A stretch of 41,633 bases of DNA. Source: an uncultured Bacteroidales bacterium. Lineage in GTDB: Bacteria > Bacteroidota > Bacteroidia > Bacteroidales > UBA932. Location: NCBI GenBank assembly GCA_900319975.1, contig ONQP01000014.1, forward strand, positions 1 through 41,633, in the 5' to 3' direction. Below the pieces are notes generated by a model, which saw nothing but the letters and a program-made list of their open reading frames with translations, had not been told where the DNA came from and ran no database searches. Shown piece after piece: positions 36,545-40,190 of the stretch. The translations under genes and the position numbers were made by a program. Positions within the stretch are counted from its first letter, which is position 1, and each line of letters starts with the position of its first letter.

Positions 36545-37102
36545 ATGAAACTGTCCCAGGGCAAGAAACTTCTGTTGCTCGGCATTGCGCTCGTCGTCAT
36601 TGACCAGGTGATCAAATACCTGGTCAAGACGAATATGGAGCTGGGCGAGCAGATCAACGTGATCGGTCAGTGGTTCCGCCTCTGCTTCGTGGAGAACAAG
36701 GGGATGGCCTTCGGCATGTCCTTCGGCGGACAGGTCGGCAAGTTCCTCCTCTCGCTCTTCCGCATCGTGCTGAGCGGCGTGCTGATCTGGTGGATCCGCT
36801 CGCTGATCAAGAAGGGCACGCCGACCGGCGTGCTGGTCGGCTTGACGATGATCACGGCCGGCGCGGTCGGCAACATCATCGATTCGCTCTTCTATGGCCT
36901 GATCTGGGACTATGCTCCGTTCATGTTCGGCAAGGTGGTCGACATGTTCTTCTTCCCGATCATCCGGGACGGCGAGCGGGTGATATTTTTCAGCCCGGTG
37001 TTCAATTTCGCCGATTCCTGTGTGACGGTGGGCGCTTTCTATCTGCTTCTTTTTCAGTGGCGTTTTTTCGCGAAAGACGAGAAATCCGAGAAAAAGGATT
37101 AA
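36545..37102 (+). CDS. lspA: Lipoprotein signal peptidase (prolipoprotein signal peptidase II)
   Basis: 185 aa with four membrane helices. The catalytic aspartates are D113 in GNIIDSLF and D157 in FNFADSCV. It cleaves the signal peptide of lipidated prolipoproteins, of which this window encodes several. ATG 36545 gives MKLSQGKKLLLLG; the upstream frame overlaps the DksA-like gene. The stop codon TAA is also the first half of the -7 box of the tRNA-Ser(UGA) promoter. Confidence 0.95.
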   Translation: MKLSQGKKLLLLGIALVVIDQVIKYLVKTNMELGEQINVIGQWFRLCFVENKGMAFGMSFGGQVGKFLLSLFRIVLSGVLIWWIRSLIKKGTPTGVLVGLTMITAGAVGNIIDSLFYGLIWDYAPFMFGKVVDMFFFPIIRDGERVIFFSPVFNFADSCVTVGAFYLLLFQWRFFAKDEKSEKKD

Positions 37103-37107
37103 ATTTG
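37100..37107 (+). promoter_or_regulatory. -7 box of the tRNA-Ser(UGA) promoter, overlapping the lspA stop
   Basis: TAAATTTG; its TAA is the lspA stop codon. It lies 13 nt before the first base of the tRNA, so transcription would begin about 7 nt upstream of the mature 5' end. No -33 TTG at 19-21 nt. Confidence 0.6.
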
Positions 37108-37120
37108 CAGCCCCTTTTCC

Positions 37121-37205
37121 GGAGGTGTGGCCGAGTGGTCGATGGCGGCAGTCTTGAAAACTGTTGAACGGCAACGTTCCGGGGGTTCGAATCCCTCCGC
37201 CTCCG
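37121..37205 (+). tRNA. tRNA-Ser (anticodon UGA)
   Basis: 85 nt with a 7-bp acceptor stem GGAGGTG / CGCCTCC (one G-T pair), discriminator G at 37205, anticodon loop CTTGAAA reading UGA, a long variable arm with GAACGGCAACGTTC, and T loop TTCGAAT. The long variable arm and G73 confirm serine. CCA is not encoded. Downstream comes a terminator and one copy of the tRNA-Ser-linked palindrome. Confidence 0.96.
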
Positions 37206-37357
37206 CGCAATGCATTGCAGACGAAGGAGCTGCGCAAACGCGCAGCTTTTTTGATGGATGGGGTACCCGTTGAGAGCTTGCTCTCATAAGGGCGCCCCGT
37301 CCGGCAAAAAGAGCCGGAGGCTCACCTTCGGCTGCACTGCTCCCGGAGAACAAGGGA
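37193..37357 (+). repeat. tRNA-Ser-linked palindromic unit, copy A
   Basis: From the T-arm 3' strand of tRNA-Ser(UGA): tRNA trailer, terminator (37228-37252), core hairpin TGAGAGC-TT-GCTCTCA (37271-37286) inside the 28-nt shared core 37267-37294, a reverse-facing terminator (A-run then GAGCC-GGA-GGCTC, 37306-37323), and at 37324-37356 an inverted degenerate copy of the tRNA end and trailer: reverse-complemented it has GCAGTGCAGCCGAAGG against GCATTGCAGACGAAGG at 37212-37227. The centre of symmetry is close to the core hairpin. Copy B at 39954-40120 has the same plan. No protein gene lies in this interval. Confidence 0.75.
37228..37252 (+). terminator. Terminator of tRNA-Ser(UGA)
   Basis: Eight-bp stem AGCTGCGC / GCGCAGCT with loop AAAC and a run of six T, 22 nt after the tRNA. 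Confidence 0.92.
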
Positions 37358-37370
37358 AAAGGCCCGCGCA

Positions 37371-37393
37371 GCGGGACTAATCCCGCTTTTTTT
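37371..37393 (+). terminator. Intrinsic terminator abutting the araC-type start codon
   Basis: GCGGGA-CTAA-TCCCGC followed by seven T (37387-37393), which run straight into the ATG at 37394. It would stop any read-through from the tRNA-Ser(UGA) side, and leaves no room for a leader or ribosome site for that ATG. Confidence 0.8.
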
Positions 37394-38197
37394 ATGAATA
37401 TGATGCGACCCCACGGGAGTTCCGCTGCGGACTTCTCCTCCCTCCGTTTCTTCATCCGCAGGATGGATACCTCGGGCTATGTCAAGCCCGCGGAGGTCCC
37501 CGTGTCGCGTTTCCCGCTCATCGCGTTCATTTATGTCACGTCCGGCGAAGTGCTGGTCGAGTCCGACGGCGCGCCGTTCCTCTGCCAGCCCGGCCATCTG
37601 CTGCTGGTCCCGCCGATGTGCCCCTTCGCCACCCGCTACTACCGCGACGCGGTGGGCTATATGGGCGGTTTCCAGCCGTCGGCGCTGCCCGACAGCGCGC
37701 CGCTGCGCTTCCTGACCGCGCCGCATCACCAGGCGTTCTGGTTCGACGAGGGCGCGTTCGTGAGCGAACTCTTCAACATGCTCGCCGAGTCGTTCGCCAA
37801 GCACGACGAGGTGTTCATCGAGAAGGGCCTCGACCTGCTGCTTTCGCGCGTTAAGTGGGGCGACGTCCAGTCTTTCCCGCCGGCCGTCAGCGCGTTCCTG
37901 GAGTCGGTCTTCGCCGAAGACCGGACGCCGGGCACCATCGCTTCCTATGCGGAGGAGGCCGGCATCAGCGAGAACTACCTCAGCCGCCTGGTCAAGAAGG
38001 CCACGGGCCGCAGCGTCGGGTCGTGGATCGACATCGTGCGCATCTCGCGCGCCAAGCGCCTGCTGGCAGGGACCGACACGCCGGTCATCGACGTCGCTGC
38101 CGCCGTGGGCCTGGAAGATCAGTCCTACTTTGCCCGCCTGTTCAAGAAAGAGACGGGTATGACGCCTTCTGCGTTCCGCAAGAAGATGCAAGGATAA
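37394..38197 (+). CDS. AraC-family transcriptional regulator
   Basis: 267 aa if started at 37394. The N-terminal two thirds are a cupin-like sensor (FPLIAFIYVTSGEVLVE, FLCQPGHLLLVPP); the C-terminal 95 residues are the double helix-turn-helix (IASYAEEAGISENYLSRLVK and IDVAAAVGLEDQSYFARLFK, then KETGMTPSAFRK). It binds DNA; effector and targets are unknown. Because a terminator ends at the first ATG, the true start may be 37403 (MMRPHGSS) or 37463 (MDTSGYVKPAEV). It stands alone between tRNA-Ser and DUF4491. Confidence 0.88.
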   Translation: MNMMRPHGSSAADFSSLRFFIRRMDTSGYVKPAEVPVSRFPLIAFIYVTSGEVLVESDGAPFLCQPGHLLLVPPMCPFATRYYRDAVGYMGGFQPSALPDSAPLRFLTAPHHQAFWFDEGAFVSELFNMLAESFAKHDEVFIEKGLDLLLSRVKWGDVQSFPPAVSAFLESVFAEDRTPGTIASYAEEAGISENYLSRLVKKATGRSVGSWIDIVRISRAKRLLAGTDTPVIDVAAAVGLEDQSYFARLFKKETGMTPSAFRKKMQG

Positions 38198-38272
38198 TCC
38201 TAATTCCGTGTTTCCCCGGACTAAAAACTCCGATCCTTTTTGCCGAACTTTGCACATTAATCCGGAATTGCT

Positions 38273-38599
38273 ATGAATTTCAATGGTATCATCGTCGGCG
38301 CGGCCGTGTTCTTCTCGATCGGCATCTGCCATCCCGCCGTCATCAAGATGGAATATCACCTGGGCAGGAAATGCTGGTGGATGTGGCTCGTCGCCGGCCT
38401 GCTCTTCTGCGGCCTTTCACTGCTGATCGAGAACGACACGCTCTCCACGATCGTCGGCGGCTTCGCCTTCTCCTGCCTGTGGGGCATCGGCGAGGTGCTG
38501 ATGCAGGAAAAGCGCGTGCTGCGCGGCTGGTTCCCGGAGAATCCCAAGCGCCACGATTATTACGAGAAACGGCGCAAAGAATTGCAGGGGAAATTTTAA
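38273..38599 (+). CDS. DUF4491 family membrane protein
   Basis: 108 aa with three hydrophobic segments (about 3-22, 35-53 and 59-75) and a basic C-terminus (KRVLRGWFPENPKRHDYYEK). MNFNGIIVGAAVFFSIG and FSCLWGIGEV fit DUF4491, a Bacteroidota inner-membrane family of unknown function. The intergenic region before it has GAACTTTG at 38245-38252, a poor -7 candidate. The end of the gene contains the -33 element of the icd promoter. Confidence 0.82.
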   Translation: MNFNGIIVGAAVFFSIGICHPAVIKMEYHLGRKCWWMWLVAGLLFCGLSLLIENDTLSTIVGGFAFSCLWGIGEVLMQEKRVLRGWFPENPKRHDYYEKRRKELQGKF

Positions 38600-38612
38600 T
38601 TCCTTATCTTCG
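38582..38612 (+). promoter_or_regulatory. icd promoter
   Basis: TTG (38582-38584), 20-nt spacer, TATCTTCG (38605-38612). The -33 part lies within the last codons of the DUF4491 gene. The TTCG variant of the -7 box is the same as at the fimbrillin locus. Confidence 0.65.
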
Positions 38613-38645
38613 TAAGACTTAGTTGTATTACGTATAGATAAGGTT

Positions 38646-39854
38646 ATGACAAAGATTCAGATGACCACCCCGCTGGTGGAGATGGACGGGGACGAAATGA
38701 CCCGGATCCTCTGGAAGATGATCAAGGACGAGCTGATCCTGCCGTTCGTAGACCTCAAGACAGAATATTACGACCTGGGCCTCGAGAACCGGGACCGCAC
38801 CGCCGACCGCGTCACGGTCGAGGCGGCCGAGGCCTGCCGCAAATACGGCGTCGGCGTGAAGTGCGCCACCATCACCCCCAACGCGCAGCGGATGACGGAA
38901 TACAATCTCCATCAGATGTGGAAGAGCCCCAACGGCACCATCCGTTCCATCCTGGACGGTACGGTGTTCCGCGCGCCCATCACCATCCCTTCCATCCGCC
39001 CGGTCGTCCGGAACTGGGAGAAACCCATCACGATCGCCCGCCACGCCTATGGCGACGTCTACAAGAGCGTGGAGCTGAAGGCCGACGGCCCGGGCACGGC
39101 CCGGCTGGTCTTCGACGGCGCCGACGGCAGCCACAGCGAAGCCGTGATCCAGGAGTTCAAGGGTGCGGGCGTGATCCAGGGCATGCACAACACCGACAAG
39201 TCCATCCGCTCCTTCGCGCACGCCTGCTTCAAGTATGCCGTGGACACCCGCCAGGACCTCTGGTTCTCCACCAAGGACACGATCTCCAAGACCTACGACG
39301 CGCGTTTCCGCGAGATCTTCGACGAGGTCTATGCCGGATACAAGGCGCAGTTCGAGGAGCTGGGCATCACCTATTTCTATACCCTGATCGACGACGCGGT
39401 CGCCCGTGTCATCCGCAGCCGCGGCGGCTTTATCTGGGCCTGCAAGAACTACGACGGCGACGTGATGAGCGACATGGTGTCGACGGCGTTCGGCTCGCTC
39501 GCGATGATGACCAGCGTGCTGGTCAGCCCCGACGGCAACTATGAGTACGAAGCCGCGCACGGCACGGTCACGCGCCATTACTACCGCTATCTGCAGGGTG
39601 AGGAGACTTCCACCAACCCGATGGCCACCATCTTCGCCTGGAGCGGCGCGCTGCGCCAGCGGGGCGTGAAGGACGGCCTGGACGCGCTCACGCAGTTCGC
39701 CGACGCGCTGGAGGCGGCCTGCTTCGACACCCTCGGCGAAGGGATTGCCACCAAGGACCTCGTGAACCTGATGGAAGGCGTCACTCCGAAGTCCGTCAAC
39801 TCCGCGCAGTTCATCGCCGCCATCCGCGAGCGCCTGGAGAAGCGGCTCTCCTAG
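38646..39854 (+). CDS. icd: NADP-dependent isocitrate dehydrogenase
   Basis: 402 aa homodimeric, eukaryote-like type. Visible are the N-terminal PLVEMDGDEMTRILW, substrate-binding SPNGTIRSILDGTVFR, IDDAVARVIRSRGGFIWACKNYDGDV with metal-binding aspartates, and NADP-binding EAAHGTVTRHY. It oxidises isocitrate to 2-oxoglutarate in the TCA cycle. It is preceded by its own promoter. Downstream the reverse-facing terminator of palindrome copy B (39989-40006) lies in the right orientation to end its transcript. Confidence 0.97.
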   Translation: MTKIQMTTPLVEMDGDEMTRILWKMIKDELILPFVDLKTEYYDLGLENRDRTADRVTVEAAEACRKYGVGVKCATITPNAQRMTEYNLHQMWKSPNGTIRSILDGTVFRAPITIPSIRPVVRNWEKPITIARHAYGDVYKSVELKADGPGTARLVFDGADGSHSEAVIQEFKGAGVIQGMHNTDKSIRSFAHACFKYAVDTRQDLWFSTKDTISKTYDARFREIFDEVYAGYKAQFEELGITYFYTLIDDAVARVIRSRGGFIWACKNYDGDVMSDMVSTAFGSLAMMTSVLVSPDGNYEYEAAHGTVTRHYYRYLQGEETSTNPMATIFAWSGALRQRGVKDGLDALTQFADALEAACFDTLGEGIATKDLVNLMEGVTPKSVNSAQFIAAIRERLEKRLS

Positions 39855-39988
39855 AGCCGGATTCCCGCGCGGCAGTTCTGAGGCGCGAAGCGGCGGGGGA
39901 TAAGGGGATGGAATCCATCATGTTCGGGATTTGGTCGCACTGCGTGCGCCCACATCCCTCGGTCACCGCGAGCAAAGCAAACAGGGAC

Positions 39989-40006
39989 GAGACTTCGTCT
40001 CTTTTT
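39989..40006 (+). terminator. Plus-strand terminator in palindrome copy B, serving icd
   Basis: GAGAC-TTC-GTCTC followed by five T. The stem is short at 5 bp. The equivalent in copy A (GAGCC / GGCTC with T-run on the opposite strand) differs by a compensated C-G to A-T change. Confidence 0.6.
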
Positions 40007-40055
40007 GCATATTGGAACGCCCTTACAAGAGCAAGCTCTTGACGGCCGCTCCAAT

Positions 40056-40084
40056 ACACAAAAACGCCGCACAATGTGCGGCGT
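40056..40084 (-). terminator. Terminator of tRNA-Ser(CGA)
   Basis: Perfect 9-bp stem ACGCCGCAC / GTGCGGCGT with loop of three, with the T-run on the minus strand (TTTTTGTGT), 22 nt after the tRNA end. Confidence 0.9.
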
Positions 40085-40105
40085 CCCTATTTGCTTTGCA
40101 TAGCG

Positions 40106-40190
40106 CGGTGAGTGAGGGATTCGAACCCCCGGTACGTTGCCGTACACCTGTTTTCGAGGCAGGCTCCTTCAACCACTCGGACAACTCACC
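40106..40190 (-). tRNA. tRNA-Ser (anticodon CGA)
   Basis: 85 nt. Acceptor stem GGTGAGT / ACTCACC, discriminator G (complement of 40106), anticodon loop CTCGAAA, long variable arm with GTACGGCAACGTAC, T loop TTCGAAT. The last pair of the anticodon stem is a C-A mismatch. CCA is not encoded. Together with the UGA gene, two of the serine isoacceptors lie within 3 kb, on opposite strands. Confidence 0.95.

Follow-up and report, generated by a model that had tools for sequence, protein, structure and literature searches.

The 3′ ends of tRNA genes are classic landing sites of large islands, and in many tRNA-integrating islands the repeat covers the tRNA from the T-loop up to its end. Elements of the IS200/IS605 and repetitive extragenic palindrome (REP)-like types are not known to leave a target duplication, and in IS608 the order of parts is guide, hairpin and cleavage site. 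The DNA analysed here (the window) is the 41,633-nt contig ONQP01000014.1 of an uncultured Bacteroidales bacterium (assembly GCA_900319975.1). It carries two copies, A and B, of a structured element behind two tRNA-Ser genes, and these are probably members of a family of gene-less mobile elements with a fixed insertion point in tRNA genes. Among the explanations weighed below, site-specific insertion with a target-derived repeat appears to be the best supported.

A sequence-only reading of the window had drawn attention to a 28-nt core situated ca. 60 nt past both tRNA-Ser(tga) and tRNA-Ser(cga), and had placed it correctly on the two strands (see arm P3 in Table 1). It had also pointed out two swaps of paired bases between the copies, one of NN/NN within the core and one of GAGCC/GGCTC for GAGAC/GTCTC next to it; both are real, and they lie in the tip of arm P3 and in hairpin P4, respectively, of a branched structure of ca. 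180 nt. Read in the direction of the tRNA, this element begins directly after C74 with an outer stem, P1, which encloses P2, P3 and P4 and is followed by a linker and by hairpin P5. P2 is a GC hairpin followed by a T-run that doubles as the lower 5′ strand of P3; the P3 tip, which is the core, has an internal loop GU/UAA, six pairs and a CUUG loop; P4 is a short hairpin; and P5, placed after the 3′ strand of P1 and the linker, has AATCCC as its 3′ strand. The terminator described in that reading is present, but as arm P2 of the branched fold and not as a separate unit, and neither the outer stem P1, beginning just past the tRNA, nor the AATCCC end of P5 had been seen. The original observation is correct but understated, and it did not extend to the insertion-like behaviour of the element, which looks mobile.

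Copy A folds at −98.4 kcal/mol, versus a mean of −66.6 for shuffled sequences (z −7.45), and copy B at −108.3 versus −64.5 (z −10.06), each beating 200 of 200 dinucleotide shuffles. A chance palindrome is ruled out by these shuffles, by the chance expectation of the core in the window, which is zero, and by covariation. A plain terminator was also rejected: P2 alone would qualify, but P1, P3, P4 and P5 covary as well. In a MAFFT alignment of ten elements we counted 133 doubly changed cells, versus 52 in shuffles and 25–32 with the structure slid along the alignment, and in an alignment of 84 rows fitted to the model there were 1750, versus 507 in shuffles, with 66 of the 67 pairs doubly changed and 93.3 % of the cells paired. 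The earlier claim that paired changes reflect selection on structure is thus borne out in both alignments.

A pattern search of 61 genomes of the genus gave 15 matches in 13 genomes, ten of the 15 being the element, each behind a tRNA. A covariance model, R1, was built from those ten (the two window copies and eight from relatives), and a second, R2, from the 84-row alignment, one row of which is a reverse-strand match. Model R1 matches 91 of 151 genomes of the genus (E up to 0.01) and 13 of 198 genomes of the order, 11 of these 13 lying outside the genus, in nine families; R2 matches 18 of 345 genomes of the phylum (E up to 0.001), namely the window's own and 17 more, which belong to six families. 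A few weak matches are included, and divergent copies may be missed because the filters in the many-genome searches were strict. Across the window's family, a search with the core matched 11 of 99 genomes, its own included; at the ten other loci R2 identifies the element clearly in L051, L054 and L056, showing that other genera of the family carry it, weakly in L048 and L049, and finds no convincing element in the remaining five. Further copies therefore exist in relatives. In the window's own genome (2.19 Mb in 132 contigs, 88 % complete, with 34 tRNA genes) the core with up to three mismatches matches only the two window copies, and R2 with E up to 10 finds no copy beyond them, its other hits being their reverse-strand echoes. 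Additionally, the exact core occurs in 13 stretches of named contigs; 12 of them come from assemblies titled Bacteroidales, Bacteroidia or Bacteroides, and R1 recovers the whole element in all 12. The thirteenth, in a contig titled Clostridia (L092:2530–2560), gives a 31-nt R1 match to the P3 tip alone, a small hairpin.

The position of the element was examined in the best-scoring matches (30 loci plus 60 stretches from among the genus matches listed), which contain 114 distinct elements once three weak or tip-only loci are excluded. The model itself includes no tRNA. Of the 114, 105 start between −12 and +20 nt from an annotated tRNA end: 84 behind tRNA-Ser, ten behind Arg, four behind Ala, two behind Val and one each behind tRNAs labelled Gly, Cys, Gln, Pro and Met. 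Among the other nine, L085 and L168 lie where their contigs begin, with a tRNA end visible ahead of the element; L165, L171, L102 and L056 have, by eye, tRNA-end remnants in front or nearby; two belong to the L111 array as later units; and one is a second copy in L144, ca. 0.3 kb behind the first and with no tRNA end ahead. At the phylum level, matches were additionally seen behind tRNAs for Glu, Leu, Pro, Arg, Met, Asp, Phe and Val. The check that the sequence-only reading had proposed, a covariance model run over relatives with inspection of the upstream neighbour, thus returned many matches, with 105 of the 114 elements examined directly behind a tRNA, and strong covariation.

Signs of insertion lie at the far end of the element. 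We compared P5 with the tRNA in 107 elements with a readable T-loop (119 entries, less 11 without a T-loop and one repeat). The T-stem strand of the element's own tRNA is present in the P5 region of 66 of them, versus 2.7 expected by swapping tRNAs. In 23 the element is followed by a further tRNA 3′ end that matches at 13 or more of 15 bases, where the swap rate predicts ca. 1. The 3′ strand of P5 corresponds to the T-stem strand, and the 5′ strand is its Watson-Crick complement. An origin of P5 as a copy of the 5′ strand of the T-arm was rejected: in 82 of 84 rows T60 faces an A of P5, and the U of the outermost pair faces A in 26 rows and G in none, with 34 rows unpaired there. With the comparison anchored at T60–C74, a second tRNA 3′ end with 13 or more matching bases out of 15 is found at 18 of 130 loci, the 130 being taken from 136 entries and including 17 of the 28 phylum loci. 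Identity between the two copies is 0.83–1.0 over T60–C74 and 0.89–0.94 in the two bases before it, and it is 0.17 at the third base and 0.39 directly past C74, the values downstream of C74 being inflated by three tandem loci. At L063, L079, L080 and L121 the order is tRNA, element, second tRNA 3′ end, and then a hairpin with a T-run like that behind empty tRNA genes.

Presence and absence were observed at the same tRNA in different genomes. Nine tRNA-Ser(gga) loci of other genomes were compared (L239, with no such gene in reach, is outside the nine): L260, L262, L265 and L267 are occupied (R2 71–95 bits), at L256, L257 and L266 there is a plain terminator without an R2 match, and at L252 the plain terminator is followed further on by a weak R2 match of 21 bits. 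At L263 there is a reduced form, a single long hairpin with a AAGCTTGCTT tip and no branching (R2 25 bits), and a short P1-like remnant can be seen by eye behind the terminator of L257. The site next to lspA and tRNA-Ser(tga) is filled in the window and in genome G193; among the loci compared there, L178 and L179 are filled, and L182, L193 and L180 are empty, the last with a weak 20-bit match beginning ca. 160 nt past the tRNA gene. Elements are arranged in tandem in G543 (units 177–178 nt apart, one 373), G272 (158 nt apart) and G283. In L105 (G365:C13), behind tRNA-Ser(cga), the first element is followed by degenerate repeats of only the linker, P5 and tRNA-end part.

These features suggest that the element, mostly of 150–220 bp, would enter a tRNA gene directly 3′ of C74, a point immediately beyond the mature tRNA, leaving a second copy of T60–C74 behind it. 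It would supply its own terminator-like hairpin, P2, and we propose that, with P2 brought along, the tRNA still terminates properly; to the extent of read-through, the element could be co-transcribed from the tRNA promoter. Repeated insertion at one tRNA would generate the tandem arrays, in which the tRNA-distal copies would decay. P5 may be the end that contacts the target, and the P3 tip, the most conserved part, may bind the enzyme that moves the element, presumably supplied in trans.

A mini-island mobilized in trans by a tyrosine recombinase, with the T-arm as attachment site and P5 as a displaced half site, would fit the extent of the repeat at the 18 loci, from the T-loop to the tRNA end, as well as the form of P5, an inverted repeat around a spacer. 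This spacer, nevertheless, holds a hairpin of its own, and at ca. 180 bp the element has no room for an integrase gene, for which the search was confined to the element; frames crossing it (e.g., 118 aa at 37099–37455 on the minus strand), to which no family scan was applied, run into the tRNA or the flank. Moreover, a carried attachment site would bring along the 3′ end of the former tRNA. In genome G176, the two elements with the highest similarity of any same-genome pair (71 % in P1–P4) stand at Ser(cga) and Ser(tga), and the right-hand copy of each matches the local tRNA (13 of 15 in both cases), so that the repeat seems to derive from the target instead of being carried by the element. 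A tyrosine recombinase would explain the site but not such a repeat, and we consider this alternative unlikely.

Several observations weigh against insertion by a mobile element. Neither a mobilizing enzyme nor movement was seen, although no search was aimed at Y1 transposases and integrases were sought only within the element; beside the arrays, in L268, L269 and L271, no recombinase was recognized in the first 50 residues of the frames of at least 120 aa, which were read without a family scan. The 18 loci were selected by their T60–C74 identity and only the borders count as independent evidence, and the AA ahead of T60 is also part of the P5 consensus. Most loci keep only the P5 part of the repeat, AATCCC in the window copies, so that the insertion history rests on those 18. 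The target-derived repeat depends mainly on the G176 pair, for which conversion is an alternative, and an inverted copy of the tRNA 3′ end occurs behind the element in eight of 107 cases (ca. 0.5 expected from the swap rate), just past P5 in L067, L072, L085, L140, L157, L170, L173 and L176, which simple duplication does not explain. Finally, for 21 of 63 labelled elements the nearest relative shares the tRNA type (9.3 by chance; the largest of 2000 shuffles gave 24), and for one of 63 it is in the same genome, so that some members of the family may have been inherited in place.

This last point also agrees with a resident host element, such as a tRNA terminator, a trailer-processing signal or a small RNA, which would be immobile and inherited in place. 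Genome G193, which gave the highest-ranking lspA match among 200 genomes apart from the window's own, has elements behind the same two tRNA-Ser types, ca. 3 kb apart as in the window. Copy A, the only copy so compared, and its G193 orthologue share 56 of 63 pairs, and the differences include compensatory changes (four pairs changed on both sides, two on one side and one broken). Differing sites number 20 of 144 in the element body and one of 53 in the linker and P5, with 32 of 603 in lspA and 47 of 1209 in icd, which we take to be these genes from recognition of their frames. The terminator-like form of P2 and the RNA-like wobble of P2 and P3 (see below) would likewise suit a resident element. 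The second tRNA 3′ end with its sharp borders, the tandem arrays, the absence of the element at the same tRNA in relatives and its patchy occurrence over order and phylum all speak against it, making a purely resident origin improbable.

Wobble pairs were used as an indicator of the nucleic acid under selection, comparing GU with its opposite-strand equivalent AC over 83 rows. The GU/AC counts are 15/0 in P2, 168/22 in the P3 shaft, 9/1 in the P3 tip and 9/3 in P4, whereas P1 (22/18), outer P5 (4/5) and inner P5 (11/6) show no RNA bias. Because an alignment fitted to the model leans to GU throughout, differences from helix to helix are more informative than absolute levels; the ten-element alignment, which was not fitted, totals 38/17. 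Loops of the type C(GNA)G close inner P5 in 47 of 83 rows and P4 in 33 of 83, and neither P2 nor the P3 tip in any of the 83. According to PMC4686876, GNA and GNNA loops form unusually stable DNA mini-hairpins; since GNNA loops are common in P2 (C(GAAA)G in 12 rows), the argument from loops is only suggestive and its contrast weaker than it appears. These data hint that P2 and P3 act as RNA, and P5 and perhaps P1 as single-strand DNA, so that both parts of the earlier wording, RNA or cruciform, may hold in part. The lack of RNA bias in P1 and P5 speaks against a purely RNA role, and the wobble of lower P3 may partly reflect the T-run; both points temper the mobile reading proposed above.

Regarding the route of movement, the start of the element coincides with the tRNA processing site. 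One possible route resembles that of eukaryotic short interspersed nuclear elements (SINEs): RNA starting at that site would be copied into the target by target-primed reverse transcription. We give it some preference; it would explain the target repeat, the RNA-like P2 and P3 and the start at the processing site. Movement as folded single-strand DNA, nearly as likely, would explain P1 and P5 better. More tentatively, the element could be a bacterial counterpart of SINEs, a promoterless structured RNA for which tRNA genes serve as both promoter and landing site and whose P5 is rebuilt at each tRNA; its RNA would be freed at the tRNA 3′ processing site and copied back into tRNA genes at T60/C74.

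In a related proposal, a Y1 (HUH) transposase would move the element as a folded single strand of DNA, in the manner of REP-like or IS200/IS605-like passengers, and the 5′ strand of P5 would guide it to the target strand. The order of parts in P5 (guide, hairpin, cleavage site), the absence of GU bias in P1 and P5 and the C(GNA)G loops of inner P5 and P4, a motif of very stable DNA mini-hairpins (PMC4686876), are compatible with it. The 15–17-nt target repeat, unlike what such elements leave, and the RNA-like P2 and P3 are not, and the common GNNA loops of P2, counted as DNA mini-hairpins in the same paper, weaken the loop contrast. We regard such a passenger as rather doubtful. A miniature inverted-repeat transposable element of the DDE type was rejected: the P1 strands pair with each other, but the right end is P5 and not the 3′ strand of P1, and there are no terminal inverted repeats.

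In the last mobile alternative considered, the element would descend from a GIY-YIG homing element of tRNA genes and have lost the endonuclease gene. In the array behind tRNA-Ser(tga) of G543 (L268:9619–9991, contig C30), an 87-aa GIY-YIG nuclease frame (Pfam E 4.2e-17) replaces P3–P5 of one unit, between the common P1/P2 start and a tRNA 3′ end; that unit lacks both P3 and P5. In f124, the family of G543, small GIY-YIG genes adjoin tRNA genes at 24 of the 30 best loci (L276–L305), with a same-strand tRNA upstream in 14, a tRNA at most ca. 115 nt downstream in ten others, and none in reach in six. Several of these f124 loci are tandem arrays with degenerate tRNA copies, such as L285, with 349-bp units at tRNA-Pro, and the genes appear to constitute a tRNA-homing system of their own. 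Within the genus of the window, none of 17 loci with short GIY-YIG frames has a tRNA within ca. 1.5 kb on each side where the contig allows, and the only match in the own genome is a 626-aa frame. A GIY-YIG driver is thus unsupported in the genus, and this origin is very unlikely.

Other known categories were also considered. With Rfam 15 (on the window, and in E-value mode on the window piece and ten loci), only tRNA genes scored above the gathering score and the element itself gave only matches below it, so a known RNA family was discarded. Phage cargo was examined by a narrow test, one exact core pattern searched in viral contigs, which gave no matches and led us to reject it.

Table 1. Host tRNA genes and structural parts of the two element copies in the window
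Feature	Coordinates	Strand	Basis
tRNA-Ser(tga), host gene of copy A, last base C74	37121..37206	+	ARAGORN; Rfam RF00005
Copy A, P1 5′ strand	37212..37227	+	fold; covariation
Copy A, P2 terminator-like hairpin, followed by the T-run (lower 5′ strand of P3)	37228..37247	+	fold; wobble
Copy A, P3 long arm; tip is the 28-nt core (37267–37294), CUUG loop	37248..37310	+	fold; covariation
Copy A, P4 hairpin, loop C-GGA-G	37311..37323	+	fold; covariation; wobble/loop counts
Copy A, P1 3′ strand	37325..37340	+	fold; covariation
Copy A, P5 hairpin; 3′ strand AATCCC is that of the tRNA T-loop/T-stem	37354..37384	+	fold; sequence
tRNA-Ser(cga), host gene of copy B	40105..40190	-	ARAGORN
Copy B, P1 5′ strand	40083..40099	-	fold
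Copy B, P2 terminator-like hairpin	40066..40082	-	fold
Copy B, P3 arm with the core (40045–40018)	40002..40064	-	fold
Copy B, P4 hairpin, loop C-GAA-G	39989..40001	-	fold
Copy B, P1 3′ strand	39972..39988	-	fold
Copy B, P5 hairpin, ending in AATCCC	39926..39958	-	fold; T-stem strand comparison

Gene-less mobile elements and tRNA-gene landing sites are both known, and their combination is not among the literature searched. The family, found behind tRNA genes across the phylum, is apparently undescribed: the absence of a described element with this plan, already suspected in the sequence-only reading, agrees with the Rfam result and with a search of open PubMed Central papers, which for the wording used retrieved no such element. 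A gene-less, strongly structured family occupying one spot in many families of a phylum would lend itself well to studies of how gene-less bacterial DNA spreads, its site being fixed, its repeat short and its presence variable between relatives, and also of whether read-through from tRNA genes feeds mobile RNAs. It also matters for tRNA annotation, since the arrays hold decayed tRNA ends.

The element resembles the tRNA-targeted islands of tyrosine recombinases in its site at the tRNA 3′ end, the intact tRNA, the flanking repeat and the possibility of tandem copies, and differs from them in being ca. 180 bp long without room for an integrase, in its conserved branched fold and in a repeat that is apparently target-derived. 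With the elements of the REP/RAYT (REP-associated tyrosine transposase) and IS200/IS605 types it shares being short, palindromic, dispersed, gene-less and presumably moved in trans, with a foot that may pair with the target; unlike them, it has a much larger branched fold, a fixed tRNA position and a target repeat. As in structured bacterial RNAs from Rfam, there is a conserved structure with covariation, without a match to any of the families in Rfam 15. Eukaryotic SINEs and tRNA-targeting retroelements are likewise short, structured and gene-less, with a fixed tRNA position and a target duplication; the element differs from them in being bacterial and in that it would use the promoter of the target tRNA.

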